Notes under the pieces: model-generated | Databases searched by the model: none | What the model was told of the DNA's origin: nothing | The model's input: the letters and a program-made list of their open reading frames with translations, nothing else | In this document: positions 26,250-54,876 of the stretch, piece after piece | Numbering within the stretch: position 1 is the first letter of the stretch | How the letters are laid out: every line of letters starts with the position of its first letter | Made by a program: the position numbers and the translations under genes | NCBI GenBank assembly: GCA_020720045.1 | Contig: DYPH01000003.1 | Coordinates: 30,767 to 94,766, forward strand | Length of the DNA: 64,000 nucleotides | Direction: 5' to 3' | Source: Sorangium cellulosum | GTDB lineage: Bacteria > Myxococcota_A > Polyangia > Polyangiales > Polyangiaceae

Positions 26250-29200
26250 TTACTCGCGACCAGGATTCCGCTTCGACTCGAGGATCTCGCGCGTCGCTTC
26301 CACGTGGAGCGGGTTCAGGTCGAGCAGGAGCTCGTAGTCGTCGATGGCGCCCGATCCTTGGCCGAGCTCGCGACGGACGCGGGCGCGGTACAGAATCACG
26401 CGTTCGAGCTCGGGGCTCGCCGCCAAGATGCGATCGAACACCGAGAGCGCCTGCGGGGCGCGCTTGGGATCGCGACGGGAATGAATCCAGGCCAAAAGCG
26501 CCTGATATTCCTGTTGATTTGGGTCCTTCTCCATCGCCAAGCGGGCGGCGTCTTCGGCGCCGTCGAGGTCCCCCTTTTGGAGGGCGAGGTCGGCGTTGCG
26601 GGCCGCTTGGGCCGCGGCGAGCGCGTCGTCGCCGGTGGCGATAGCGGCGCGTTCCGCCGACGGAGGCGCCGCGGACGGGAGCTTGGGACCCGGCTTCGGA
26701 AGCGGGGCGAGAGGTCGGGCGGCCGTGGGGGCCGGCTTGGGGGCGCTTGGAACCGCCGGGGCCGGCCGGGCAACGGTCGGTATGGCCGGCACAACCGGGA
26801 CCGGCGGACGCGGCGCCGCAGGGACCGGCGGACGGACCAGCGGTGCCCCGGCGGCCGGGCGAACAGCGGGGGCAGCCATCGGGCGAGGCGCCGGGGGTGC
26901 GGCGACGACCGGAGGTGCAGGCGGCGCAGGAGGAGGGGCCGCGACCACCGGCGGCGCAGGAGGCACAGGCGGCGGGGCCGCGACCACCGGCGGCGCAGGG
27001 CGCGCGATCGGGGCACCGGCGGCAGGGCGAATCGCCGGGGCACCCGCGGCGGGACGGATCATCGGCGCGCCGGCTGCGGGCCGAATGGCCGGGGCGGCCG
27101 CAGGGGACGGCTTCGGCGCGATCGGAGACGGCATCGACGGCGCCACGGCGGGGCTGCGGGACGACTCCGCGAGCATGTCCTCGCGGGCGGCCGGCGTATA
27201 GAAGAGGGTGCGGCCGTCGGGATCGTCTTCGTCGTCGAAGGGATCGTCGGCGGGCGGTTCCGGCGGAGGCGCAGCGACGACTGCCGGGGGCGCAGCGACC
27301 ACCGGCGGGAGAACGGCACTGGGCGGCGCATTCCGCGCGCTTCCGGGGCCGTCGTCGAAGGGGGACGGGTAGGTGACCGCGGCCGCGGGGCGCGGCGTGG
27401 CGCCGATCGGTCGAATCTGCGGACGCCGAGAAGCGACCGGGTCGTCGCGGCGGACGGCAGACACGCTCGGTGCCGGCGCCGGGATCGACACGCGGGTCGA
27501 AGGCGGCGATTTCCAGCGGCCAGAAACGACGAGCGGCGGATGAAATTCCCCAGGAACTGCGCCCTTTAGCGGGAGCTTGGTCTGGCCAGATAGCTGGAAC
27601 TGGCGCGTCACGGCGAGGGTGTAAAGGACACGCGCCATGGCGCGAACATCGACCCCCTGCCGGTAGGACCACTCGACGACGGTGGTCGTTCCCGTCCGCA
27701 AGGCAGCGAGCAACGGCGCCTCTTCGGGGGCAAACGAGAAGGCCCCAAGTTCTGCCTCGGGGTGGAGCCGAAGCGGCGCGCGCGCGATGCGATCAAGGGT
27801 CTTTTGGATCTTGTCGTCGTCGGTCCAGGCGCGAACAACGGAAAGAATCGCGTTGAGCGGCGACGTGCGTACCGGCTCCCCCGCAACGGCTTCGAGGAGG
27901 TCAACCCCTTGATAAAATGAGTAATTCGACTCAGAACCGAGTGCCCCAAGCGCCGACAAGCGCTCAACGAGCTGGACGCGGAGCGCGTTCTCCAGCTGAC
28001 CGCGGCTGATCGTCCCTTCACCCACCAAGAACTCACCCAGGAGCACGCCGAGCGGCTTTGCCGCCGCGACCGCTGCCGAGATCGCTGCCTGCGGGACAGC
28101 ACCCATCCGCGCGAGGACGTCCCCAAGGCGGGCCTCACCGGAATTCGTGAATGATTTTACCGGAGTCCCCGATGCGAAGGTGACGAAGGTCTCGCCGCCG
28201 TGGGAATCGGCGAGCAGCAAGGTGCCGTCGAGCTGGTGCTCGAGCATGTAGATGAGGACGTGAGGGAGCGGCGTGCCACCGAGGTCCCCTTCCGCGGTCG
28301 CAGCGGAGGGCCGTGCGATCTGGATCGCCTTCGAGAGCGGCTTCGGTTTGGCGTCCTCGTAGAAGGAACTCGCTTGATAAAGCGTGTTTTCTTCGCGGGG
28401 TGCCGGTTCCGGTTCCGGATCGAAGTGGAGCGGCGGACGGGCCGGCATCGGGGCGATGGGGGCCACCGCGCCACCGACCATCGTCGAGCCGAGGGCGCGG
28501 CGAACGTCGTCGACAGGCGGCTTCGCTGGGCTAGGCGGCGGAAGGTCGAAGGCGGCGTCAAAGGCGTCGTCGGCGACGAGCGGGTCATCGGAAACCAACG
28601 GATCATCCGCGATGAGCGGATCGTCGGAAACAAGCGGGTCGTCGACCACCAGCGGGTCATCGTCGAGGACGAGGTCGTCGATGGCCGCCGACGACGGCAT
28701 TCGCGGGGCCGACGGAATCCCCTCCAACTCGAGCGCGATCGCGTCGGCGACCCGCGGTTTTGGCGGCGTGACCGTCGGCGAATCGCCACCAGGGGCGACC
28801 TGCGCAAGGTGAATAATTGCGGGCGGTTGCCGATCGGGCATTGCGAAGCCGGGCGGCGGAGCCGGCGGCGCTTGCGGACGATCAGAGGACGGCTCGTCGG
28901 AGTCGGGCCCGTGGGGGGAGTCGTCGGTTTCGAAGCTGTCGCCGAGGGAGAGCCCCTTTTGCCAGCCAGTCGTCTCAACGACCCGTTTGATCGAGCGCCC
29001 CAAATCGGTCGAAAGATCGATTTCGATTGGCGAGCGCGGTCGGGCGCCGCGGGCATCGATGACGACTTTGACGACGGGGCGTTCGCCGCGGGAGGTCGGC
29101 CGCTCGACTTCGGCAACTTCTCCGGTAGAGAGTTCGACGACCGACCCCATCGGAACGACGCGGATCGTCTCCGCGAGGACGCGAAGAAGGGTCTTGTCGA

Positions 29201-30365
29201 CCGGATCGGTGAATTCGCGATCGAGGATGGCGATGGCGTAGTCGGGCGCCTTGGGCATCAAGCCCGGCTCGGGAGTCGCCGCGTCGTTAAAACGGCGGGC
29301 CATCGTCACGATACGGGCATGAAGGAGCGGGTCACGGGCGCCGCCGTAGGGCTGGCCGAGATAGAGCTTCCGCCGCAACCACTGAGCTTCAAAGGCAATT
29401 ACGGTGCGATGGATCGACGCTTCGTTAAGGCGCCCCAGCGCGGAGAGCACCGCGGCCGTACCGCGGGGGAGCTCGTCTTCCTGGTCTTCCGAGAGGCTCG
29501 TCGTGCCTGCGCCAAACTCGCCTTGCGCGGCGAGGGCGACGGCGCGCGGACGGGCGACATCGTGAACCAACGCGGCGATGGCCACCTTGGAGAGGACGAC
29601 GGCGTCATTCGTCAGTTTGCGCGCCATGGCGACGGCGAGAATCGCGCTATTTACCGCGCGCCCCGCGTCGTCAAAGTTCGCGTTTCGGGCCTCGGTGACG
29701 CCGAGGAACAGAGGGACGTTCCCCTCAGAAAGATCGACGAGCGTCTGTGCCACGCGCTTGAGGCGTCGCGGGAGCGTGTAATGGCTCTCGGAAAGATCCT
29801 CAAAGAAGCGGCGCATGACGACGACCGCCGAGGCATAACCGCGAACAATTCGCTCTTCCGGCGAGAGCTGCTCAAGTTCGAGCCCGCGAAGACGGGCAGC
29901 ATCTTTCACGGCGCGGAGGCGAAAACGCGGCGTCGGCGAACGGAAGTCGACGCTCGCATTTCGCAGTGCGTTGCCGACCGCTTCCGTGATTTGGTAGAGT
30001 TCTTTCGGCGTAATATCGCGCTCGATGAACACATCGGATCCACCGATTTTGCTCATCATATCGCCAAGTTCTACGGCCGCTTCGTAGACGCTTCGGGAGC
30101 CGCGAAGGAGCTGACCGGCAACGAATACAGCTTTGTGCGCGAAGAGAATGCTCACATCGAGACCGCTCTTGAGCGTGTACTCGGAGATCTTCTGGTGGGC
30201 GCGCTCGAGCTGCTGCAGAAACGCCTGGTTTTGCAGGTCGTGAACGGCCGCCAACTTCAGGAGTTTGTACAATTCAACGACGACGTCGGCGCCAAGCTCG
30301 CGGGCGCGCTCCCGGCGAACGTTTTCGCCGGCGTCGTTGGTCATGATGTCGAGGCGCATCGTCAT
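26250..30365 (-). CDS. Large multidomain protein: HD-like region, PATAN (DUF4388-like) domain, Pro/Ala linker and TPRs
   Basis: The 1371-residue cytoplasmic protein has four parts. Residues 1-400 are helical with a degenerate HD-like motif (LVHDVARP). A linker near 500-700 contains an acidic repeat of DDPLV units. Next comes a PATAN/DUF4388-type domain (about 710-920; LPHVLIYMLEHQLDGTL, then VTFASGTPVKSF), found in regulators of motility and development. A Pro/Ala-rich stretch (about 950-1230) with VVAAPP repeats leads to TPR-like helices at the C-terminus. Its ATG at 30365 overlaps the stop of the upstream Ser/Thr kinase (ATGA), so it is likely a partner or substrate of that kinase. Confidence 0.82.
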   Translation of the reverse strand: MTMRLDIMTNDAGENVRRERARELGADVVVELYKLLKLAAVHDLQNQAFLQQLERAHQKISEYTLKSGLDVSILFAHKAVFVAGQLLRGSRSVYEAAVELGDMMSKIGGSDVFIERDITPKELYQITEAVGNALRNASVDFRSPTPRFRLRAVKDAARLRGLELEQLSPEERIVRGYASAVVVMRRFFEDLSESHYTLPRRLKRVAQTLVDLSEGNVPLFLGVTEARNANFDDAGRAVNSAILAVAMARKLTNDAVVLSKVAIAALVHDVARPRAVALAAQGEFGAGTTSLSEDQEDELPRGTAAVLSALGRLNEASIHRTVIAFEAQWLRRKLYLGQPYGGARDPLLHARIVTMARRFNDAATPEPGLMPKAPDYAIAILDREFTDPVDKTLLRVLAETIRVVPMGSVVELSTGEVAEVERPTSRGERPVVKVVIDARGARPRSPIEIDLSTDLGRSIKRVVETTGWQKGLSLGDSFETDDSPHGPDSDEPSSDRPQAPPAPPPGFAMPDRQPPAIIHLAQVAPGGDSPTVTPPKPRVADAIALELEGIPSAPRMPSSAAIDDLVLDDDPLVVDDPLVSDDPLIADDPLVSDDPLVADDAFDAAFDLPPPSPAKPPVDDVRRALGSTMVGGAVAPIAPMPARPPLHFDPEPEPAPREENTLYQASSFYEDAKPKPLSKAIQIARPSAATAEGDLGGTPLPHVLIYMLEHQLDGTLLLADSHGGETFVTFASGTPVKSFTNSGEARLGDVLARMGAVPQAAISAAVAAAKPLGVLLGEFLVGEGTISRGQLENALRVQLVERLSALGALGSESNYSFYQGVDLLEAVAGEPVRTSPLNAILSVVRAWTDDDKIQKTLDRIARAPLRLHPEAELGAFSFAPEEAPLLAALRTGTTTVVEWSYRQGVDVRAMARVLYTLAVTRQFQLSGQTKLPLKGAVPGEFHPPLVVSGRWKSPPSTRVSIPAPAPSVSAVRRDDPVASRRPQIRPIGATPRPAAAVTYPSPFDDGPGSARNAPPSAVLPPVVAAPPAVVAAPPPEPPADDPFDDEDDPDGRTLFYTPAAREDMLAESSRSPAVAPSMPSPIAPKPSPAAAPAIRPAAGAPMIRPAAGAPAIRPAAGAPIARPAPPVVAAPPPVPPAPPVVAAPPPAPPAPPVVAAPPAPRPMAAPAVRPAAGAPLVRPPVPAAPRPPVPVVPAIPTVARPAPAVPSAPKPAPTAARPLAPLPKPGPKLPSAAPPSAERAAIATGDDALAAAQAARNADLALQKGDLDGAEDAARLAMEKDPNQQEYQALLAWIHSRRDPKRAPQALSVFDRILAASPELERVILYRARVRRELGQGSGAIDDYELLLDLNPLHVEATREILESKRNPGRE

Positions 30366-33277
30366 GAGCGCACCCCGGCGGCAGCGTTCGCCTGGAGGCG
30401 AGCCTTGATGGCATCGACGGCCGCCTGGGCGGCGGCGCGCGTCTCTGAGGACGTGCCCCAGCGGGAGTCGGCGACCTCCTGGAGGGCCCCCATCGTCACC
30501 CGGCTCGTCGAATTCTCGCCGAGGACCTGACAGGCCACAATACGAACGATTTCACGATCATCGGACGTCACGAGACCGCCCTTCTTGGCGATTTCTACGG
30601 CAACGGGCTCCCCGTGTTGGGGGGCGAGAGCCACGAGACCGGTGAGGAGCGCGTACCGCTCTTCGCCGCTCAATTGATGGAGAGGGGCCGTCTTCGCTTT
30701 GCGGGAGATCGCCGGATGGCCCGCCTTCAGCTGGAAGCGGAGGAGGGTCTGCAGGGCGAGCACGCGACGGTCGACCCGGGGATCTTCAAGCATTTGAAGA
30801 AGATCGGGCAGTGCGGCGTCCGGCGAGCCGGCCGCGCGCATCTTCGCTTCGATGGCGACGCCGGGGTCGTCGGTGGAGGCGAGCTGCAATACCGCCTGGC
30901 GGGCCGCAGCCGTGTTGGAACGGGTGAGCATGTCGAGGAGGCGGGCGGAAGCTTCCTTGTCGGCGCCGCGCGTCGCCTGGGCGACCATCTCCTCCAAGCC
31001 TGGCAAATGATGCTGCAAATAGGCGGCGAGCGAGTCGCGAAGCGCTCCGGGGAGCGGGCGCCGGAACGTTTCGAGCATCGTCGGATATTCGTTGCGGCTC
31101 AAGAGCGGAAGGACCGGCCGGAACGCGTGCACATGCTCCGGGGTCGCTTCGAGGCGCCCCAGCGCAAGCTTCAGATTCTCCGCGCCAAACATCGCCGCGG
31201 CGAGGCCGGCGACGAGCTTCAGCCGGTCCTGATCGCTCGGAACAAGCCCGGCAAGGCGCTCGCCAAACGTCTGGAAAAGCTGGAGCGGGACCTCCACACG
31301 CCCGGCGACGAAGAGATCGGCGCAGGATTTCCGGAGCGCTGCGAGGACGAGCGGGGCATCCCGCTGGACGGCAGCATGCAAATAGCCCTGCAAAAACGCG
31401 TCGACGTAGCGCTCGCTGAACTCGTTCGCGTCGATCACGAGGCGGCGCCCGTAGAGGTTCCGCTCGACGTCTTCGAGGGCGAGCGGAGAGACGCCTGTGT
31501 CGTCGGTCAGCACGCCGTCGTTGGTGGCGACGTTCATCGCTTTTGCTTCGACTTCCGAGGTCTTGTCGCGGGCCGCCGCTTTTGCGACGCGCTCCAATTC
31601 GCCGGCTTCATCGTAGAAGGCCTCACGCTCGGTCGCCTCGCCCTCGGCAAAGGCTTCGCAGCATTCCCATTGAACGTGGGTGAGACGGCGTTCCCAGAGA
31701 GCCGACGCGATGTCGTCTTCCGGGGGGAGATCGAGGGCCGGCTCGCACGCGAGCAGCTTCCAGAGCTCGAGGAGTTCCTTGTCGGTGACGCCGCGCTTCA
31801 CCGCGAGACGGCGCACGCCGCAGGCGAACAAGTTGTAGGGGACCGAGTCGAAAGGGGGCCCCGGTTCCCAGATCGTGTGCCCGAAACGGAGCAAGGAATA
31901 CGGGCGGATATCGAGTTCGAAGACGGCAGGATCTTTGGCGAGCGCTTCGCCGAAGGCCTGGGTCATCGTCTGGATGATGCGCTCGGAGGTCGGGTGATTC
32001 CAGCCGTATTGGCGGGCGTTCGGGAGGAGTCGTTCGACGTGCTTGAAGAGATCGCGGAGCGCGACGATGCGGGGGTCGTTGTCGCCGACCTCGAATTCCA
32101 TCGTGTTGCTGACGGCGCCGGAACCGGAGCCGAGCGAGCGACCCGTGTTCGTCTCCGCCTGCGAATTCGAGAAGGCCCCCGTCTGGCGCCCCATCCCGCC
32201 CGGCGCCTGAAAGCCACCGGTTCCCGGGTTCGAACCCTGAAAGCCTCCAGTGCCGCCGGCGTCGTTTACGCCCGAGCCGATGCTCGCCGGCATCATGCTC
32301 GGTGCCCGCGGACGCATCTCCGGCGGCGCAAGCGCAGGTGCCGCCGCAGCGAGTGCGGTGCCCTTCGGTCCGCCGAGCGGCAATGCGCCGAGCTTGGCGA
32401 GACACTCGATCATCGCCTTGCTCATCGCTTCGGCGTTGTCGAAACGATTGCGCCGATCCCAGGCGAGCGCCTTGTCGATGAGTTTGATGACTTCTACCGG
32501 CAAATTCGGGGCGATACGCGCTACCGAGGGGACCGGCTTGGTCGCCGCCATAACGAGCGCTTCTTGCTCGGTACGGCCATTGTTAATTCGCTGACCGGTC
32601 ACGAGGGCGTGCATCATCGCCCCCATGGAGAAAAGGTCCGAACGGCCGTCGAGCTGATCGACGAGCCCCATCGCCTGCTCGGGCGACATGTAGGACGGCG
32701 TTCCGAGGGCCGTTCCCGCCTGGGTGCGCTCGGCGGTGGCATCGCGCATCTGCGCGACGCCGAAGTCGAGGACTTTGACGACCCCCTCCTTCGTCACGAA
32801 GATGTTCGCCGGCTTCAAGTCACGGTGGATGACGCCGATCGCGTGGCAGGAGGCGAGGCAGTCGACGACGCGCTCACAAAGCTGAAGCGCCTGTACGACG
32901 GGCATCGTACGGCCGCACTTCTTCCAGACGTCACGGGCGGTGTCCCCCTCAAGGAGCTCCATGACGATGAACGGCTCACCGGCCTCGGTCATGTCGTCGT
33001 CGAAGACCTGGACCGTCGCAGGATGTCCAATTTTATTGGACACATAGGCTTCGCGAAGAAAGCGGTCTGTGATCCCCTTGTCCCGGGCAAAATCCGCATG
33101 GAGGATTTTGATCGCGGCACGCTGGCCGTTGCGGTGGGAGGCGCCGAACACGGCCGCCATACCACCAACGCCCAGGACGGAATCGAGATGCCACTTCCCG
33201 CGAAGCACCTGACCGATCCGTTCTTCGAACGGATTTTTGGCTGACTTCTTGGGGGTTCCTGCGTCCGCCACGACCAT
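30362..33277 (-). CDS. Ser/Thr protein kinase with a large C-terminal helical-repeat region
   Basis: The 971-residue protein carries an N-terminal Hanks-type kinase domain (about 25-290). The Gly loop is G36-V-G-G-M, the lysine is K57 (AIKIL), the catalytic loop is H151-R-D-L-K-P-A-N and the metal-binding DFG starts at D171. GTPSYMSPEQ completes the activation segment, so it should be active. A Gly-rich linker follows near 310-380. The remaining 590 residues are helical, with HEAT-like repeats near the C-terminus. No membrane segment is seen. It is coupled to the PATAN-protein gene downstream, so the two probably form a signalling module. Confidence 0.93.
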   Translation of the reverse strand: MVVADAGTPKKSAKNPFEERIGQVLRGKWHLDSVLGVGGMAAVFGASHRNGQRAAIKILHADFARDKGITDRFLREAYVSNKIGHPATVQVFDDDMTEAGEPFIVMELLEGDTARDVWKKCGRTMPVVQALQLCERVVDCLASCHAIGVIHRDLKPANIFVTKEGVVKVLDFGVAQMRDATAERTQAGTALGTPSYMSPEQAMGLVDQLDGRSDLFSMGAMMHALVTGQRINNGRTEQEALVMAATKPVPSVARIAPNLPVEVIKLIDKALAWDRRNRFDNAEAMSKAMIECLAKLGALPLGGPKGTALAAAAPALAPPEMRPRAPSMMPASIGSGVNDAGGTGGFQGSNPGTGGFQAPGGMGRQTGAFSNSQAETNTGRSLGSGSGAVSNTMEFEVGDNDPRIVALRDLFKHVERLLPNARQYGWNHPTSERIIQTMTQAFGEALAKDPAVFELDIRPYSLLRFGHTIWEPGPPFDSVPYNLFACGVRRLAVKRGVTDKELLELWKLLACEPALDLPPEDDIASALWERRLTHVQWECCEAFAEGEATEREAFYDEAGELERVAKAAARDKTSEVEAKAMNVATNDGVLTDDTGVSPLALEDVERNLYGRRLVIDANEFSERYVDAFLQGYLHAAVQRDAPLVLAALRKSCADLFVAGRVEVPLQLFQTFGERLAGLVPSDQDRLKLVAGLAAAMFGAENLKLALGRLEATPEHVHAFRPVLPLLSRNEYPTMLETFRRPLPGALRDSLAAYLQHHLPGLEEMVAQATRGADKEASARLLDMLTRSNTAAARQAVLQLASTDDPGVAIEAKMRAAGSPDAALPDLLQMLEDPRVDRRVLALQTLLRFQLKAGHPAISRKAKTAPLHQLSGEERYALLTGLVALAPQHGEPVAVEIAKKGGLVTSDDREIVRIVACQVLGENSTSRVTMGALQEVADSRWGTSSETRAAAQAAVDAIKARLQANAAAGVRS

Positions 33278-33489: not shown

Positions 33490-36078
33490 TCAGCGCTTGG
33501 GGAGGGCGTCGGTGGCGGGGAGCCCGCTTGGGGCGGCCGGATCGCGGAGGACGAGCGGAACGGCGATCGCCGCAATCGCCGCGGCGAGGCCTGCCAGGGC
33601 CCCGGGGGCGAGGCCAAAGGAGAGGCCGAGGAGCGCGGCGCCCCCGGGGACGGCGACCGCGAAGAGGGCTCGACGGAAACGACCATCGAAGGATTTCGCG
33701 TGGGCGAGGGCCCAGGCGGCGTTGGCGCCATCGCCATCGTGGACGAGGATCGTCGGTGCAGCCCCCGCGGAAGGCTCACCGAGCCTTCGTACACGGTTGG
33801 AATCCTTGGCGTATTCGGAATTAACTTCGTCGTCACGGCGCCGCGCAAGCCCGGGCCCGAGGAGGACCGCGACGTGGGGCGCGCCGAGCGTCGCTTCGTC
33901 CCACCGCGGACTTCCGACGGCGGCCAAGATGTGCCCCGCCTCCGCCAACCGGGCGACCTCCGCGGCGCGATCGCCGGGGAGGACCTCGGCACGCACGTGA
34001 TCGATACCGATTTGCGTCGCCATCGCCTCGCAAGAGGCGCGCGATTCCCCAGAAAGGAGAATCGGTTCGATCGATGCATCATGCAGCAATGCGATCGTGC
34101 GGTGCGCTTCCGAGGCAAGGCGGTCTTCGAAGCCGAGGAGGCCGATCAAGCGCCCGGCCCGCGCGACGAAAAGTGCCAGCTTTCCGACACTTTCCAGATC
34201 GGTGGCGGCCGCCTCCAGGCGCCCCAACGCGACGCCGTGGCGGAGGAGCAGGGCCCGATTGCCGACGAGGACCGTCTCGCCAGAGGCACGTGCTTCCACG
34301 CCAAGACCTGGAAATTCTTCGCAACGAAGGAGCGGCGCCGGCTGCACGTCCCGGTTTTGGGCGGCGCTACGGATCGCATCGGCCATCGGATGCTTCGAAT
34401 CACGCTCGGCGCCGGCGGCGAGCGCGATCAGCTCCTCATCGGTGACCGAACCATCGGTCAGGAGCGCACACAAAATCGGCGCCCCTTCGAGGACGGCGCC
34501 GCGCGCGCAGAGCACCGCCGCATCGACGCGGGCAGCAAGATCGAAGGCATCGCCGTCGGTGTAGAAGACCCCGCGCAGCACGCCCCGAAGACGGGCGTCG
34601 GCGAGCGCCCTTTCCGTAAGAACAACAAGTGGATACGGCAAAAATGCCGTCGCCCCGGCACAGGCGGCCAGGGTCGTATCCCACTCGTCGGTTCGCCCGG
34701 CAAACGCCGCAAATGCAGCGACGAGGGCGGCGAGCGGCGCCGCGTAAGGGGCGCGATCGACGAGCGCGGCGAAGCGCGGGGAGAGCTCGGGGGCTGCTTC
34801 GTCTTCGGCGGCGTGGAGGAGTTGGGCGTCGGTCGTGAGCGCGTCGACGGCAAGATCGAAGGCGCCTTCCGTGCACTCGGCACCTGCGGCGAGCGTCGTG
34901 ACAACGGTCCGCTCATCGCCGTAGGGGCCGACGGCAACGACCCGTCTTGCTTCGGGAAAGAGATGAACCGCCCCTTCGCCGTCGACGACATGGCCATCGG
35001 CCGCGATCGTATCTCCGGCGGAAACTCGAACGATATCTCCGCGAAACACGCCAGCACCGACCGCCTCGAGACGGTCGCGAAGGGCGCGGACGCGGTTTCG
35101 AGGGTCGGGGACGAGGGCGGCGACCAGATCGCCGATGGCGACCGCAAAGAGAATCGCCGCGGCCAAGGTGACCGTCGCGGCGCTGCGCGCATCTCCGCGT
35201 AACGTTTGAACGATTGCCCCGGCAAGCGCCACCAGCAGCGGCACCCGGGAAAGCGCCCGGAGCGGTGCCCGCGGCGCTTCGCGATCGGTCACGAGGAGCA
35301 CAAGGAGCAGGACGGTGCCGAAGCCGACGGCGCCAAGCGTCAACGAAGCGACGGAAAGCCCCAGAAAAGGAAGGAAAAATGAGAGGAATGCCGCGAGCGC
35401 GGCGAGGGCCGGCAGCCGGTAACCGGGCGGCGCCGCAGCGACGGGGACCGCTCGTCGACGCGCCGGGAGCGCCGTCGGTCGCAGAGGCACGCTCGCCGGG
35501 GCGACGACACCGCCGTCAACGTCGTCCTGTTCATACTCGTCGGCGGGGAAGCCCCGATATTCTTCCGGATTTTCGGTGTCAGCCGGTTCCGGGAGGTCGT
35601 CCTCCTCGGGGCTTCGCCGGGTCTCGGGAGGGGGCTCTTCCGCAGGTACCTCGCGCGAAAGTAGAGCAAGTACGCGGGTATCGTAACGAGGGATCGCGAC
35701 CGGCGCCGCTTCGACCGGTTCCGCAGGCGCAACCGCCACGGTGGGTGCAGGTGCTCGTCCGCCCGGAACCGCCAACGGCGGTGAGGAAACGGCGAGCACG
35801 GATGCGGTCTTTTCCAGCGGGGCATCGATCGGCAAGGTCGCGCGCGGGCGCGATGCCGAAGAGGGGGCCGGAAGTATCGTGAGCGGGGCGGCGAGGGTGA
35901 CCGGGGGAGGGTCGGCGGTCGCCGCTTCTGACGCGACCCGCGCTTCGTAAAAGCGCGATTTGCATGCGCTATTGCAGAAATGGTGGAACGTGCCCCCGAC
36001 GATCGCCACCGGCCCCGCGCGCAGCGGATCGACCGCTTTTCCGCAGGCGGGACAGGTTTTTCCGGGGGGAGCGGCCAT
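33490..36078 (-). CDS. Catalytically dead P-type ATPase homologue with N-terminal zinc-finger-like motif
   Basis: The fold of a heavy-metal P-type ATPase is visible over 862 residues, but key motifs are lost. The phosphorylation motif DKTGTLT is replaced in exact register by CARGAVL, with C524 in place of the Asp. TGD reads SGE and GDGxND reads GSPRWDE. The TM6 CPC metal site reads LPY. The HP motif (KHPMADAI) is kept. The N-terminus holds C9-x-x-C12 and C35-x-x-x-C39, like a YHS/TRASH metal finger. A long acidic, Pro-rich linker (about 60-200) contains an inserted coding repeat. ATP-driven transport is not expected; a metal-binding or regulatory role is inferred. No frameshift or stop interrupts it, so it is under selection or recent. 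Confidence 0.85.
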   Translation of the reverse strand: MAAPPGKTCPACGKAVDPLRAGPVAIVGGTFHHFCNSACKSRFYEARVASEAATADPPPVTLAAPLTILPAPSSASRPRATLPIDAPLEKTASVLAVSSPPLAVPGGRAPAPTVAVAPAEPVEAAPVAIPRYDTRVLALLSREVPAEEPPPETRRSPEEDDLPEPADTENPEEYRGFPADEYEQDDVDGGVVAPASVPLRPTALPARRRAVPVAAAPPGYRLPALAALAAFLSFFLPFLGLSVASLTLGAVGFGTVLLLVLLVTDREAPRAPLRALSRVPLLVALAGAIVQTLRGDARSAATVTLAAAILFAVAIGDLVAALVPDPRNRVRALRDRLEAVGAGVFRGDIVRVSAGDTIAADGHVVDGEGAVHLFPEARRVVAVGPYGDERTVVTTLAAGAECTEGAFDLAVDALTTDAQLLHAAEDEAAPELSPRFAALVDRAPYAAPLAALVAAFAAFAGRTDEWDTTLAACAGATAFLPYPLVVLTERALADARLRGVLRGVFYTDGDAFDLAARVDAAVLCARGAVLEGAPILCALLTDGSVTDEELIALAAGAERDSKHPMADAIRSAAQNRDVQPAPLLRCEEFPGLGVEARASGETVLVGNRALLLRHGVALGRLEAAATDLESVGKLALFVARAGRLIGLLGFEDRLASEAHRTIALLHDASIEPILLSGESRASCEAMATQIGIDHVRAEVLPGDRAAEVARLAEAGHILAAVGSPRWDEATLGAPHVAVLLGPGLARRRDDEVNSEYAKDSNRVRRLGEPSAGAAPTILVHDGDGANAAWALAHAKSFDGRFRRALFAVAVPGGAALLGLSFGLAPGALAGLAAAIAAIAVPLVLRDPAAPSGLPATDALPKR
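35746..35805 (-). repeat. Dispersed in-frame coding repeat, copy in the pseudo-P-type ATPase
   Basis: This 60-bp stretch encodes [16 protein letters not shown] on the minus strand. It matches the 57-bp tandem units at 53797-53944 almost base for base; I count two differences over 60 positions (GCTCGCC/GCTTGCC and ACGAGC/ACAAGC). It sits in the protein's disordered linker. Confidence 0.93.
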
Positions 36079-36133: not shown

Positions 36134-37342
36134 CTATTTAGCAGCAAGCTCGGCAACAACGGCGCGGACCGCCGCAATTCCCTCGGCGAGCTCGGCCTCG
36201 GTGACGACGAGCGGCGGGCAGAACCGGAGGACGCGGTCGCCGGCGCCGATGACAAGCACGCCTCGCGCAAAAATCTGCGGAACGACGTCACGGGCGACAA
36301 AGCCCTCGCGAACCACAAGGCCACGAAGGAGACCGACGCCGCGTTCCTGTTCGCAAACCTTCGGAAATTCCTCAACAATCGCGCGAAGCCCCTTCGCGAG
36401 GAACTCCCCTTTTTGGGTGGCCGCTTCGGCGAGCTTCTCCTCCTCGACGATCGCGAGGACCGAGAGCGCCGAGGCACAAGCAAGCGAATTTCCACCGTAA
36501 GTCGTGCCGTGGGTCCCCGGCGGGAGGGCGCCGGCGAGCGCCTCCGTCGTCGCGAAAGCGCCGATCGGGAAGCCGCCGCCGAGCCCCTTCGCCATCGCGA
36601 CGGCGTCCGGCTTCACACCGAAGTGTTGGTACCCGAACCAGGAGCCGGTCCGGCCGACGCCGGTCTGCACTTCGTCAAGGAGCAACAAGGCACCATGCGC
36701 ATCGCAAAGCGCCCGCAATCCTTGAAGAAAGCCCTCCGGCGCCGGGAGCACGCCCCCCTCGCCTTGCACCGGCTCGACGAGGATCCCGGCCACATCGGGC
36801 CCCATCGCCGCTTCGACGGCGGCGAGATCGCCGTAGGGCAAGTGGGTCACACCTTCGAGAGAACCGAATCCTTCTCGGTACTTCGGCGTCCCCGTGAGCG
36901 ACAGCGCCCCCATCGTGCGCCCATGAAAGGCGTTGTGGAAGGCGATGAGGCGCTTCTTCTCCGGCTTCCCGAGCCCCCAAAAGTGGTGGCGCGCGAGCTT
37001 CAGGAGCCCTTCGATCGCCTCGGCCCCCGAGTTGCAAAAGAGGACCCGGTCCATGCCGGTGATCGCGGCGAGCTTGTCGGCAAGCTCAATGTTTACGCGA
37101 TTGTAGAACCAGTTCGAGACGTGGGTGAGCGTCGCTGCTTGGTGGGCGATCGCCGCCACATGCTTCGGGTGGGCGTGGCCAACCGCGCAGACGGCGACGC
37201 CGGCGCAGAGGTCGAGGAACCGATTCCCTTCGACGTCCCAAACTTCGCAACCGCGCCCTTTTTCAAGAACAAACGGCGCCTGACGGTAGTTGCCGTAGAG
37301 GTGTTTTTCGGCGATCGCGCGGAAGGCGGCGTTGGCGGACAT
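36134..37342 (-). CDS. argD: Class III aminotransferase (acetylornithine/ornithine aminotransferase type)
   Basis: The 402-residue PLP enzyme matches ArgD/RocD length. The N-terminal VLEKGRGCEVWDVEGNRFLD and NSGAEAIEG (PLP phosphate site) are typical, as are FHGRTMGALS, LLDEVQTGVGRTG with the PLP-binding Asp, and AMAKGLGGGFPIGA with the Schiff-base Lys. The expected reaction is transfer of an amino group between acetylornithine (or ornithine) and 2-oxoglutarate. No other arginine gene is adjacent, so the exact substrate is uncertain. It ends just before a hairpin. Confidence 0.9.
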   Translation of the reverse strand: MSANAAFRAIAEKHLYGNYRQAPFVLEKGRGCEVWDVEGNRFLDLCAGVAVCAVGHAHPKHVAAIAHQAATLTHVSNWFYNRVNIELADKLAAITGMDRVLFCNSGAEAIEGLLKLARHHFWGLGKPEKKRLIAFHNAFHGRTMGALSLTGTPKYREGFGSLEGVTHLPYGDLAAVEAAMGPDVAGILVEPVQGEGGVLPAPEGFLQGLRALCDAHGALLLLDEVQTGVGRTGSWFGYQHFGVKPDAVAMAKGLGGGFPIGAFATTEALAGALPPGTHGTTYGGNSLACASALSVLAIVEEEKLAEAATQKGEFLAKGLRAIVEEFPKVCEQERGVGLLRGLVVREGFVARDVVPQIFARGVLVIGAGDRVLRFCPPLVVTEAELAEGIAAVRAVVAELAAK

Positions 37343-53682: not shown

Positions 53683-54876
53683 GTGACCCGAACTGCCGCC
53701 GCTAAAGTGCTCGTTTCCGTCGACCCGGCTCCGAAGCTGACCTGGCCGGGGAAGCCGTCGTTCGGTCCCGAACCGGCACGAGCGGTGGCGCCGCCCGCAC
53801 CTGCATCCGTGCTTGCCGTTTCCTCACCGCCGTTGGCGGTTCCGGGCGGACAAGCACCTGCATCCGTGCTTGCCGTTTCCTCACCGCCGTTGGCAGTTCC
53901 GGGCGGACAAGCACCTGCATCCGTGCTCGCCGCACCTGCATCCGACCTGCTGCAGAATGCACTGATCGTCGGCGACAACGGGGAGGCGCTGGAGGCGCTC
54001 CTCGAGACCCATCGGGGGACGGTCACGCTCGCCTACCTCGATCCGCCGTTTTTTACGCAGCGGGCGTTCACGACGAACAGCGGCGCCGCGGCGCGGGGCG
54101 AGACCGCCTTCGACGACCACTGGTCTTCGCGTGCGGAATACATGGAATTTCTGGCCCGTCGCCTGATGCTCGTCCGCGAGCTGCTGGCGCCGTGGGGCTC
54201 CGTCGTGCTGCACGTCGATCCGAAGACGAGCCACTATTTGCGTGTACTCTGCGACGAAATCTTCGGCGAAGACGCCTTCGCGAGCGAGATCGTCTGGCGT
54301 TACCGGCGCTGGCCCTCGAAACAGGAGAATTTTCAGCGGGTTCACGACGTGCTCCTCCGCTACCGGAAGGACCCGACGACCAAAGGGCGCTGGAACCAAC
54401 TCTACGAGCCGCTCGCGGCTTCGACCCAGAAAACATGGGGAACTTCCAAGCAAAAAGCGGTGGTGAACGACGAGGGGAAGCGGGCGCGCTCCTCGAAGAC
54501 GGAAGACGCCTCGCCGGGCGTGCCGCTCGGGGACGTCTGGGACATCAGCGTGATCGCGCCGGTCGCGAAAGAGCGGACCGGCTACCCGACCCAGAAGCCG
54601 GAGGCGCTCCTCAACCGCCTCATCGATGCGCTGAGCGACCCCGGCGACCTCGTCCTCGACTGCTTCGCCGGCAGCGGCACCACCCTCGCCTGCGCCGCCG
54701 AGCGCCAGCGCCGCTTCTTGGGGGTCGACGCGAGCCCGGTCTCCGTCGCGACGATCACCCGGCGCTTCGCGGCCAAAGGGGTGCCGCTCGCCTGCGTGCC
54801 GCTCGCCGACCTCACGAGCATCCCGGCGCCGCCCGACAGCACAACGCGCCTCCGCCTCGACGGTCGCGGGCGATGA
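53683..54876 (+). CDS. Site-specific DNA methyltransferase (beta class, N6-adenine or N4-cytosine)
   Basis: Motif IV, D120-P-P-F123 (LAYLDPPF), comes before motif I FAGSGTT (F328), the beta-class order found in Mod subunits and orphan MTases. Between them lies the target recognition region. The N-terminal 85 or so residues are an odd Pro/Ala-rich extension made largely of tandem repeat units (53797-53944). Translation from the GTG at 53683 gives 397 residues; a shorter start inside the repeats cannot be excluded. No restriction enzyme is adjacent, so it may be an orphan regulator. Its stop overlaps the chemoreceptor gene start (ATGA). Confidence 0.88.
53797..53944 (+). repeat. Tandem 57-bp coding repeat (dispersed element) in the methyltransferase N-terminus
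   Basis: Two full 57-bp units (53797-53853, 53854-53910) encode [20 protein letters not shown] partial third unit (from 53911) and a fourth short start (53932) follow. The first unit matches 35746-35805 nearly base for base. Being a multiple of three, the units keep the frame. Confidence 0.93.

Follow-up and report, generated by a model that had tools for sequence, protein, structure and literature searches.

P-type ATPases are textbook pumps, and their catalytic aspartate is treated as a hallmark of the superfamily. A gene of Sorangium cellulosum that resembles the heavy-metal pumps of this superfamily and lacks that residue raises the question of whether it encodes an unorthodox pump, a relic, or a pump fold put to another use. 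It lies in a stretch of 64,000 nucleotides (assembly GCA_020720045.1, contig DYPH01000003.1, positions 30,767 to 94,766 of the forward strand; henceforth the window), in which it forms an unbroken frame of 862 codons with an ATG start (33490-36078, minus strand). An initial annotation, made from the letters of the DNA, had regarded the product as a P-type ATPase homologue with every catalytic motif lost, as uninterrupted, unlike a decaying pseudogene, and as a possible sensor or scaffold, and had drawn attention to a Cys in register with the missing Asp. Orthologues with an intact DKTGT motif, or a mis-assembled locus, would have spoken against it.

The kinship of the window protein with the pumps is borne out by several kinds of comparison. 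Its best NCBIfam match is the 'heavy metal translocating P-type ATPase', below the cut-off of that model; TIGR01525 is matched with an E-value of 1.9e-42 (145.9 bits against a cut-off of 346) and LpCopA (PDB: 3rfu) with one of 1e-32. An AlphaFold2 model built from 57 family sequences (mean pLDDT 78.8; 461 residues at 90 or above) matches the CopA-type structure 7r0g_B over residues 211-850 (Z 28.4, 4.7 Å over 593 residues), and its P and N domains match those of CopA with bound ADP-Mg (PDB: 3a1d; Z 25.5, 1.9 Å over 264 residues). Because profile, sequence and predicted-fold matches concur, the homology to P1B ATPases is not due to chance. The model predicts that the protein keeps the P-type fold, with A, P and N domains and eight membrane helices (Table 1).

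Table 1. Features of the pseudo-pump gene and its immediate neighbours (window coordinates)
Feature	Residues	Position	Strand	Basis or remark
Pseudo-P1B-type ATPase gene	862 aa	33490..36078	-	ORF, profile and sequence matches, predicted fold
TRASH/YHS-like four-Cys finger (C9, C12, C35, C39; DPLRA motif)	8-45	35944..36057	-	Pfam, alignment
Disordered Pro/Ala-rich linker	47-210	35449..35940	-	pLDDT mostly <50, dN/dS, composition
Interspersed-repeat copy within linker		35765..35799	-	Without counterpart in the sister species' orthologue
First four membrane helices	218-322	35113..35427	-	Predicted structure, fold match
Actuator (A) domain, TGE lost	346-430	34789..35043	-	Predicted structure, alignment
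Membrane helices M3-M4	434-501	34576..34779	-	Predicted structure
Former CPC metal site, now LPY	480-482	34633..34641	-	Alignment
Former DKTGTLT motif, now CARGAVL	524-530	34489..34509	-	Alignment
Nucleotide-binding (N) domain	546-640	34159..34443	-	E558, H563, G591, G593 present; R608 family-invariant
P domain, second part	641-745	33844..34158	-	S676, R704, D727 in register; first GDGxND Asp lost
Last two membrane helices	784-844	33547..33729	-	Predicted structure
argD, acetylornithine transaminase		36134..37342	-	Upstream, 55-nt gap; TIGR00707 above cut-off; conserved neighbour
Protein kinase-domain gene		30362..33277	-	Downstream; Fur-family regulator in its place in many relatives

Searches with the window protein yielded matches, pumps included, in 57 of 59 related genomes, and the best hits of 29 of them (L004-L032) lack DKTGT. 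A family profile composed of the window protein and 24 of these best hits was run on a collection of named genomes and retrieved 80 loci, of which 62 scored 423-1040 bits, all without DKTGT, and the remaining 18 scored 135-262 bits, all with it. The 62 named members, which include Sorangium cellulosum, Polyangium fumosum, Minicystis rosea, Labilithrix and Byssovorax, are labelled as myxobacterial, deltaproteobacterial or unresolved, with one metagenome-assembled genome labelled Proteobacteria. Within the order to which the window's genome belongs, the gene was found in 149 of 183 genomes (E <= 1e-85; family scores 305-1040 bits), as one match in 148 of these and as two pieces in the other. The remaining 34 genomes, 15 of them of high quality, gave no match, and in some lineages of the order the gene is either dispensable or scores too low to pass the threshold. 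Genus g12 is listed with three genomes (G012, G106 and G107), none of which has the gene at this threshold, two of them at a completeness of 97-98, and this genus is possibly a natural loss lineage.

Outside the order the picture is one of pumps. All 30 positive genomes in a phylum-wide sample of 235 fall within the window's order, and in a class-wide sample of 144 genomes the best protein from another order reached 269 bits; of the listed proteins of this kind, eight were inspected, and each is a complete pump that possesses DKTGT, GDGxND, CPC and TGES. Three of these eight (L188, L189 and L193) bear a YHS-type finger near the N terminus, and such a finger on a pump is plausibly the ancestral design. 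No orthologue with an intact DKTGT motif came to light in the 111 readable family rows of our alignment, the Asp-bearing proteins inspected being ordinary pumps. The family was collected with Asp-less queries, and a pump that keeps the finger could score lower and be missed; the gap in scores and the syntenic position argue against this.

The alignment comprises a window-side set of 72 rows (71 readable at position 524), an outer set of 40 rows and 20 pump controls, and the family rows are kin, so that the counts given here are not independent of one another. The individual motifs are as first read, namely C524 in CARGAVL, SGE at 676-678, GSPRWDE at 722-728, LPY at 480-482 and the cysteines C9, C12, C35 and C39. 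Asp stands at position 524 in 0 of 71 readable window-side rows and 0 of 40 outer rows as against 20 of 20 controls, and it is found nowhere between 522 and 526 in the family rows aligned. In its stead the window-side rows have Cys (58), Ser (7), Leu (2), Met, Ala, Asn and Gln (1 each) and a gap (1), and the outer rows Cys (20), Ser (11), Ala (3), Leu and Val (2 each), Phe and Pro (1 each); altogether Cys occupies the position in 78 of 111 readable rows and another residue in 33. The CPx motif of M4 is likewise gone, with Cys at 480 in just 2 of 72 window-side rows versus 19 of 20 controls. A further loss, beyond those listed initially, is that of the A-domain TGE, absent from the 14 family rows inspected and present in the 5 control rows inspected. 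The first Asp of GDGxND has been replaced, mostly by His or Arg, and survives in one outer row. Judged by its aligned residues, then, the family has lost the Asp nucleophile, TGE, the first GDGxND Asp and CPC, and it is a pseudo-P1B-ATPase family of one bacterial order, descended from metal pumps and devoid of the residues of a phosphoenzyme pump. The window protein is almost certainly not a pump.

The view that every catalytic motif is lost nevertheless goes too far, in that a set of residues is still in register. Among the HAD motifs I-IV, the nucleophile of motif I is lost, the Ser of motif II (S676; 66 of 71 window-side rows, 22 of 40 outer) and a basic residue in motif III (R704, Arg in place of Lys; 69 of 71 and 35 of 40) are kept, and motif IV is half kept, its second Asp (D727) being present in 70 of 70 and 38 of 40 rows; all 57 members match the HAD profile PF00702 at E up to 0.01. 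The Thr that follows DK in pumps (position 526) has become Arg in 70 of 71 readable window-side rows and 21 of 40 outer ones. In the N domain we find E558 (61 of 72 and 33 of 40), G591 (70 of 71 and 38 of 40) and G593 (71 of 71 and 37 of 40) kept, with H563 kept less (54 of 72 and 23 of 40); judging by the alignment, these four correspond to the ATP-binding residues of CopA. Since H563 is retained in only these proportions, ATP binding in the usual mode is not assured. Arg 608 is invariant in the family (71 of 71 and 40 of 40) and occurs in 6 of 20 controls. In pumps, mutation of the phosphorylation site can strengthen ATP binding. Some very divergent members, L144 and L145 (genomes G121 and G122) and L152 (G179), sit on branches of 1.6-1.7 and have the SGD motif changed to SED or SGN; in L144 and L145 the GxG motif is altered as well. 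The head in these lineages is perhaps degenerating or undergoing a further change.

The gene is under purifying selection. Comparison with the orthologue of the sister species (L038) gives a dN/dS of 0.093 over the whole gene. By region, the value is 0.028 in the A domain, 0 and 0.01 in the two parts of the P domain, 0 in the finger, where sites are few, and 0.22 in the linker (residues 51-215); argD has 0.054. Across the window-side set, mean column identity is 0.53-0.66 in the P domain, 0.56 in the N domain and 0.32-0.42 in the membrane helices, which are the least conserved part of the family apart from the linker. In the pump controls, helices M3-M6 are highest (0.54-0.55) and the N domain, at 0.35, is lowest after the linker. 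By this measure conservation is reversed relative to the pumps, and constraint has shifted away from the transport path and towards the cytosolic head and the finger. In a tree, a branch with a support of 100 separates all 69 family rows from all 19 controls, and the inner clades largely match our family codes, which fits a single early loss followed by vertical descent. The stem leading to the window's genus is long, at 1.69 changes per column, which makes the window copy an extreme member and leaves room for a function unlike that of its relatives.

Outside the pump fold proper, the N-terminal finger has the four metal-coordinating residues of a TRASH/YHS domain, as CxxC plus CxxxC. The match of PF24273 to it is weak (E 2.3e-5; 24.9 bits, below the cut-off of 27), and at E up to 0.01 this profile is matched by 4 of 57 members and DUF7576 by 16 of 57. 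The cysteines themselves are nearly universal: where rows are readable, C9 and C12 are present in all 64 on the window side and all 38 of the outer set, C35 and C39 in 63 of 65 on the window side, and each of the four in 37-38 of the 38 of the outer set. The linker that follows had been called long and acidic. Long it is, but it is mainly rich in Pro and Ala (31 and 30 of 164 residues), and acidic only around residues 140-190, with 19 acidic against 4 basic residues. At around residues 90-107 the linker includes one copy of a short interspersed repeat that both genomes of the genus share, with a 35-base core, a unit of about 57 bases and 16 protein letters in one frame. Allowing up to 3 mismatches, there are 9 copies in the window's genome and 8 in the sister genome, with 0 for a reversed control. 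The copy in the pseudo-pump linker is in frame and missing from the sister orthologue; two tandem copies lie within 53797-53932 of the window (site 53809-53900, plus strand), and further loci are L196-L212. The repeat has the look of an interspersed element whose insertion into coding sequence can be tolerated.

The neighbours of the pseudo-pump gene are lineage-specific. Of the 50 named loci whose upstream DNA extends far enough, 47 have argD within 1.3 kb upstream on the same strand (the exceptions being L060, L074 and L089), and argF is close upstream in 20. A possible start codon lies within 50 nt of the stop of the arginine gene in 42 of 51 loci with readable spacing, and an overlap of 8 nt recurs. 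Among the 55 loci testable on the downstream side, 23 have a Fur-family gene on the same strand and 5 have one on the other strand, 13 resemble the window in having a kinase-domain gene at no more than 400 nt, and 13 have neither within 1.6 kb. In the outer families, argH is directly downstream on the same strand in 16 of 40 loci, with gaps of 10-189 nt and often with lysA next. Family f6 and most f3 loci are without an arginine neighbour, and four f6 loci have frr in place of the arginine genes. These counts come from scripted gene calls by GC3, which may miss or misplace genes and in the window itself missed both argD and the pseudo-pump gene. One representative each of argD (that of the window), argF, argH, lysA and frr scores above its NCBIfam cut-off, and the Fur-family neighbour falls under all NCBIfam cut-offs, so that it may be a Fur, a Zur or a PerR. 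Since two different arginine-gene contexts occur, both tightly spaced, the arrangement suggests that the gene is tied to arginine metabolism. A single ancestral argF-argH operon as the source of both contexts receives no support, since in the outer genomes checked argF has another location. The kinase gene of the window is directly followed by a gene (26250-30365, minus strand) for a 1371-aa protein with Pro/Ala-rich repeats and a weak DUF4388 match, below cut-off; several related loci have a similar pair.

That the gene persists as something other than a pump is well supported, because it is present in most of an order, single-copy and under purifying selection, and because no DKTGT orthologue was found; the window protein is very probably retained and functional. 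This much of the original suggestion of a repurposed sensor or scaffold stands firmly. A sensor or scaffold is the most plausible form of the new role, on the strength of domain content, conservation and neighbourhood. As the pump fold appears to be kept, the pumping residues are lost, selection is evident and the setting is often that of an apparent arginine operon, a receptor or scaffold is probable, and the best explanation overall, to which we give moderate confidence, is that the pseudo-pump would act as a membrane-anchored receptor or scaffold. In such a scheme, the TRASH/YHS-type finger would bind a transition metal, and the N/P head might bind a nucleotide or another phosphorylated ligand without turnover, in a pocket made up of most of the N-domain nucleotide residues, much of the HAD phosphate pocket (S676, R704 and D727) and the new Arg 526. 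Closure of the head upon the ligand, once the pumping stroke, could then be relayed to a partner. As for the pathway in which that partner works, the strongest hint from the genomes would be arginine biosynthesis, since argD-argF or argH apparently share an operon with the gene, and in part of the family a metalloregulator of the Fur family adjoins it. That metal and nucleotide are indeed the inputs of this receptor or scaffold, as domain content, conservation pattern and gene neighbourhood suggest, is a proposition that we place a little short of probable, and a function tied specifically to arginine metabolism is a more tentative one. A fuller scenario, in which the order made a receptor-only protein early from a YHS/TRASH-headed pump, turned the stroke into a switch, dropped catalysis and wired the product into arginine operons as a readout of metal and nucleotide (or acyl-phosphate) at the membrane, is a conjecture and rather unlikely in its entirety.

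Other readings of the same data were weighed. The protein might be a dead subunit that regulates or stabilizes a live P1B pump and adjusts its metal threshold, and the predicted fold shared with CopA, the metal finger and the four other PF00122 matches in the window's genome would be in keeping with this; however, no pump was recognised among the recurrent neighbours examined, and weakly conserved membrane helices fit poorly with a conserved heteromer in the membrane, so that we consider such a subunit improbable. A low probability also attaches to the idea of a membrane platform or regulator of arginine biosynthesis, in which the nucleophile-less HAD pocket holds a phosphorylated metabolite (for example carbamoyl phosphate) or the protein gathers the Arg enzymes. 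The two separate operon-like contexts, the retention of S676, R704 and D727, and the near-constancy of Arg 526 on the window side would speak for it, but Arg 526 is found in just about half of the outer rows, f6 and most f3 loci have no arginine gene alongside, and the metabolite is a guess from the neighbourhood.

The Cys in register with the catalytic Asp, held initially to be notable for a possible thioester or metal ligation, does not bear that emphasis. It prevails on the window side (58 of 71 readable rows) but in only half of the outer rows, and Ser, Ala, Leu, Val, Phe, Pro, Asn, Gln or Met take its place in the 33 others; a thiol nucleophile, thioester or metal ligand at C524 is very unlikely, and as a general function of the family it is rejected, the residue not being conserved. 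Still less can be said for unusual pumping without an aspartyl phosphate: the whole fold is predicted, membrane helices included, but CPC, TGE, the Asp and the first GDG Asp are all gone and the membrane path is weakly conserved, which makes it highly improbable. Decay or mis-assembly has next to no probability. The long stem of the window lineage and the splitting of 2 of the 62 named members into two frames (L043 and L101) might hint at it, but the occurrence in 149 of 183 genomes and the low dN/dS contradict it, the frame is unbroken as first described, and the complete genomes of Sorangium and Minicystis carry the gene.

The case also calls for caution in annotation. The window gene should not be counted as a metal-resistance pump despite its best NCBIfam match, and a stable, single-copy, Asp-less bacterial family present in most of an order offers a natural case of the use of the pump fold without pumping. 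In the open-licence literature that we searched, no description of a prokaryotic pseudo-P-type ATPase was found.

Among known systems, the P1B ATPases of the CopA/ZntA group (TIGR01525) are the closest in predicted fold, domain order, number of membrane helices and N-domain residues, and some Cu-ATPase-like pumps of the class also open with a YHS-type finger, as noted above; they differ from the pseudo-pump family in having the phosphorylated Asp, TGE, first GDGxND Asp and CPC that it lacks, and its score is far below their cut-off. Bacterial Cu-ATPases are reported to carry YHS/TRASH domains, and a cyclase has one that is a probable Cu sensor (PMC4626032). A degenerate P4-ATPase domain is described in the apicomplexan guanylate cyclase PfGC-beta (PMC6592433), which is eukaryotic, of the lipid-flippase type and fused to a cyclase, whereas the pseudo-pump is a stand-alone bacterial P1B protein with a metal finger and no cyclase domain among its Pfam matches. 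The PcrP/PA2803 subfamily, for which a non-catalytic function is reported, shares the HAD fold, but has no P-type membrane part and stands outside the P-type ATPases (PMC12632274). A 2023 review raises the question of whether eukaryotic P1B pumps that bear metal-binding tails ought to count as transceptors (PMC10654040); these resemble the present family in a terminal metal-binding domain that may act as a sensor, but they still pump, whereas in the pseudo-pump family the receptor would persist with the pump abolished. The family would thus be the limiting case of a transceptor, in which the parts of a receptor are kept and transport is removed.
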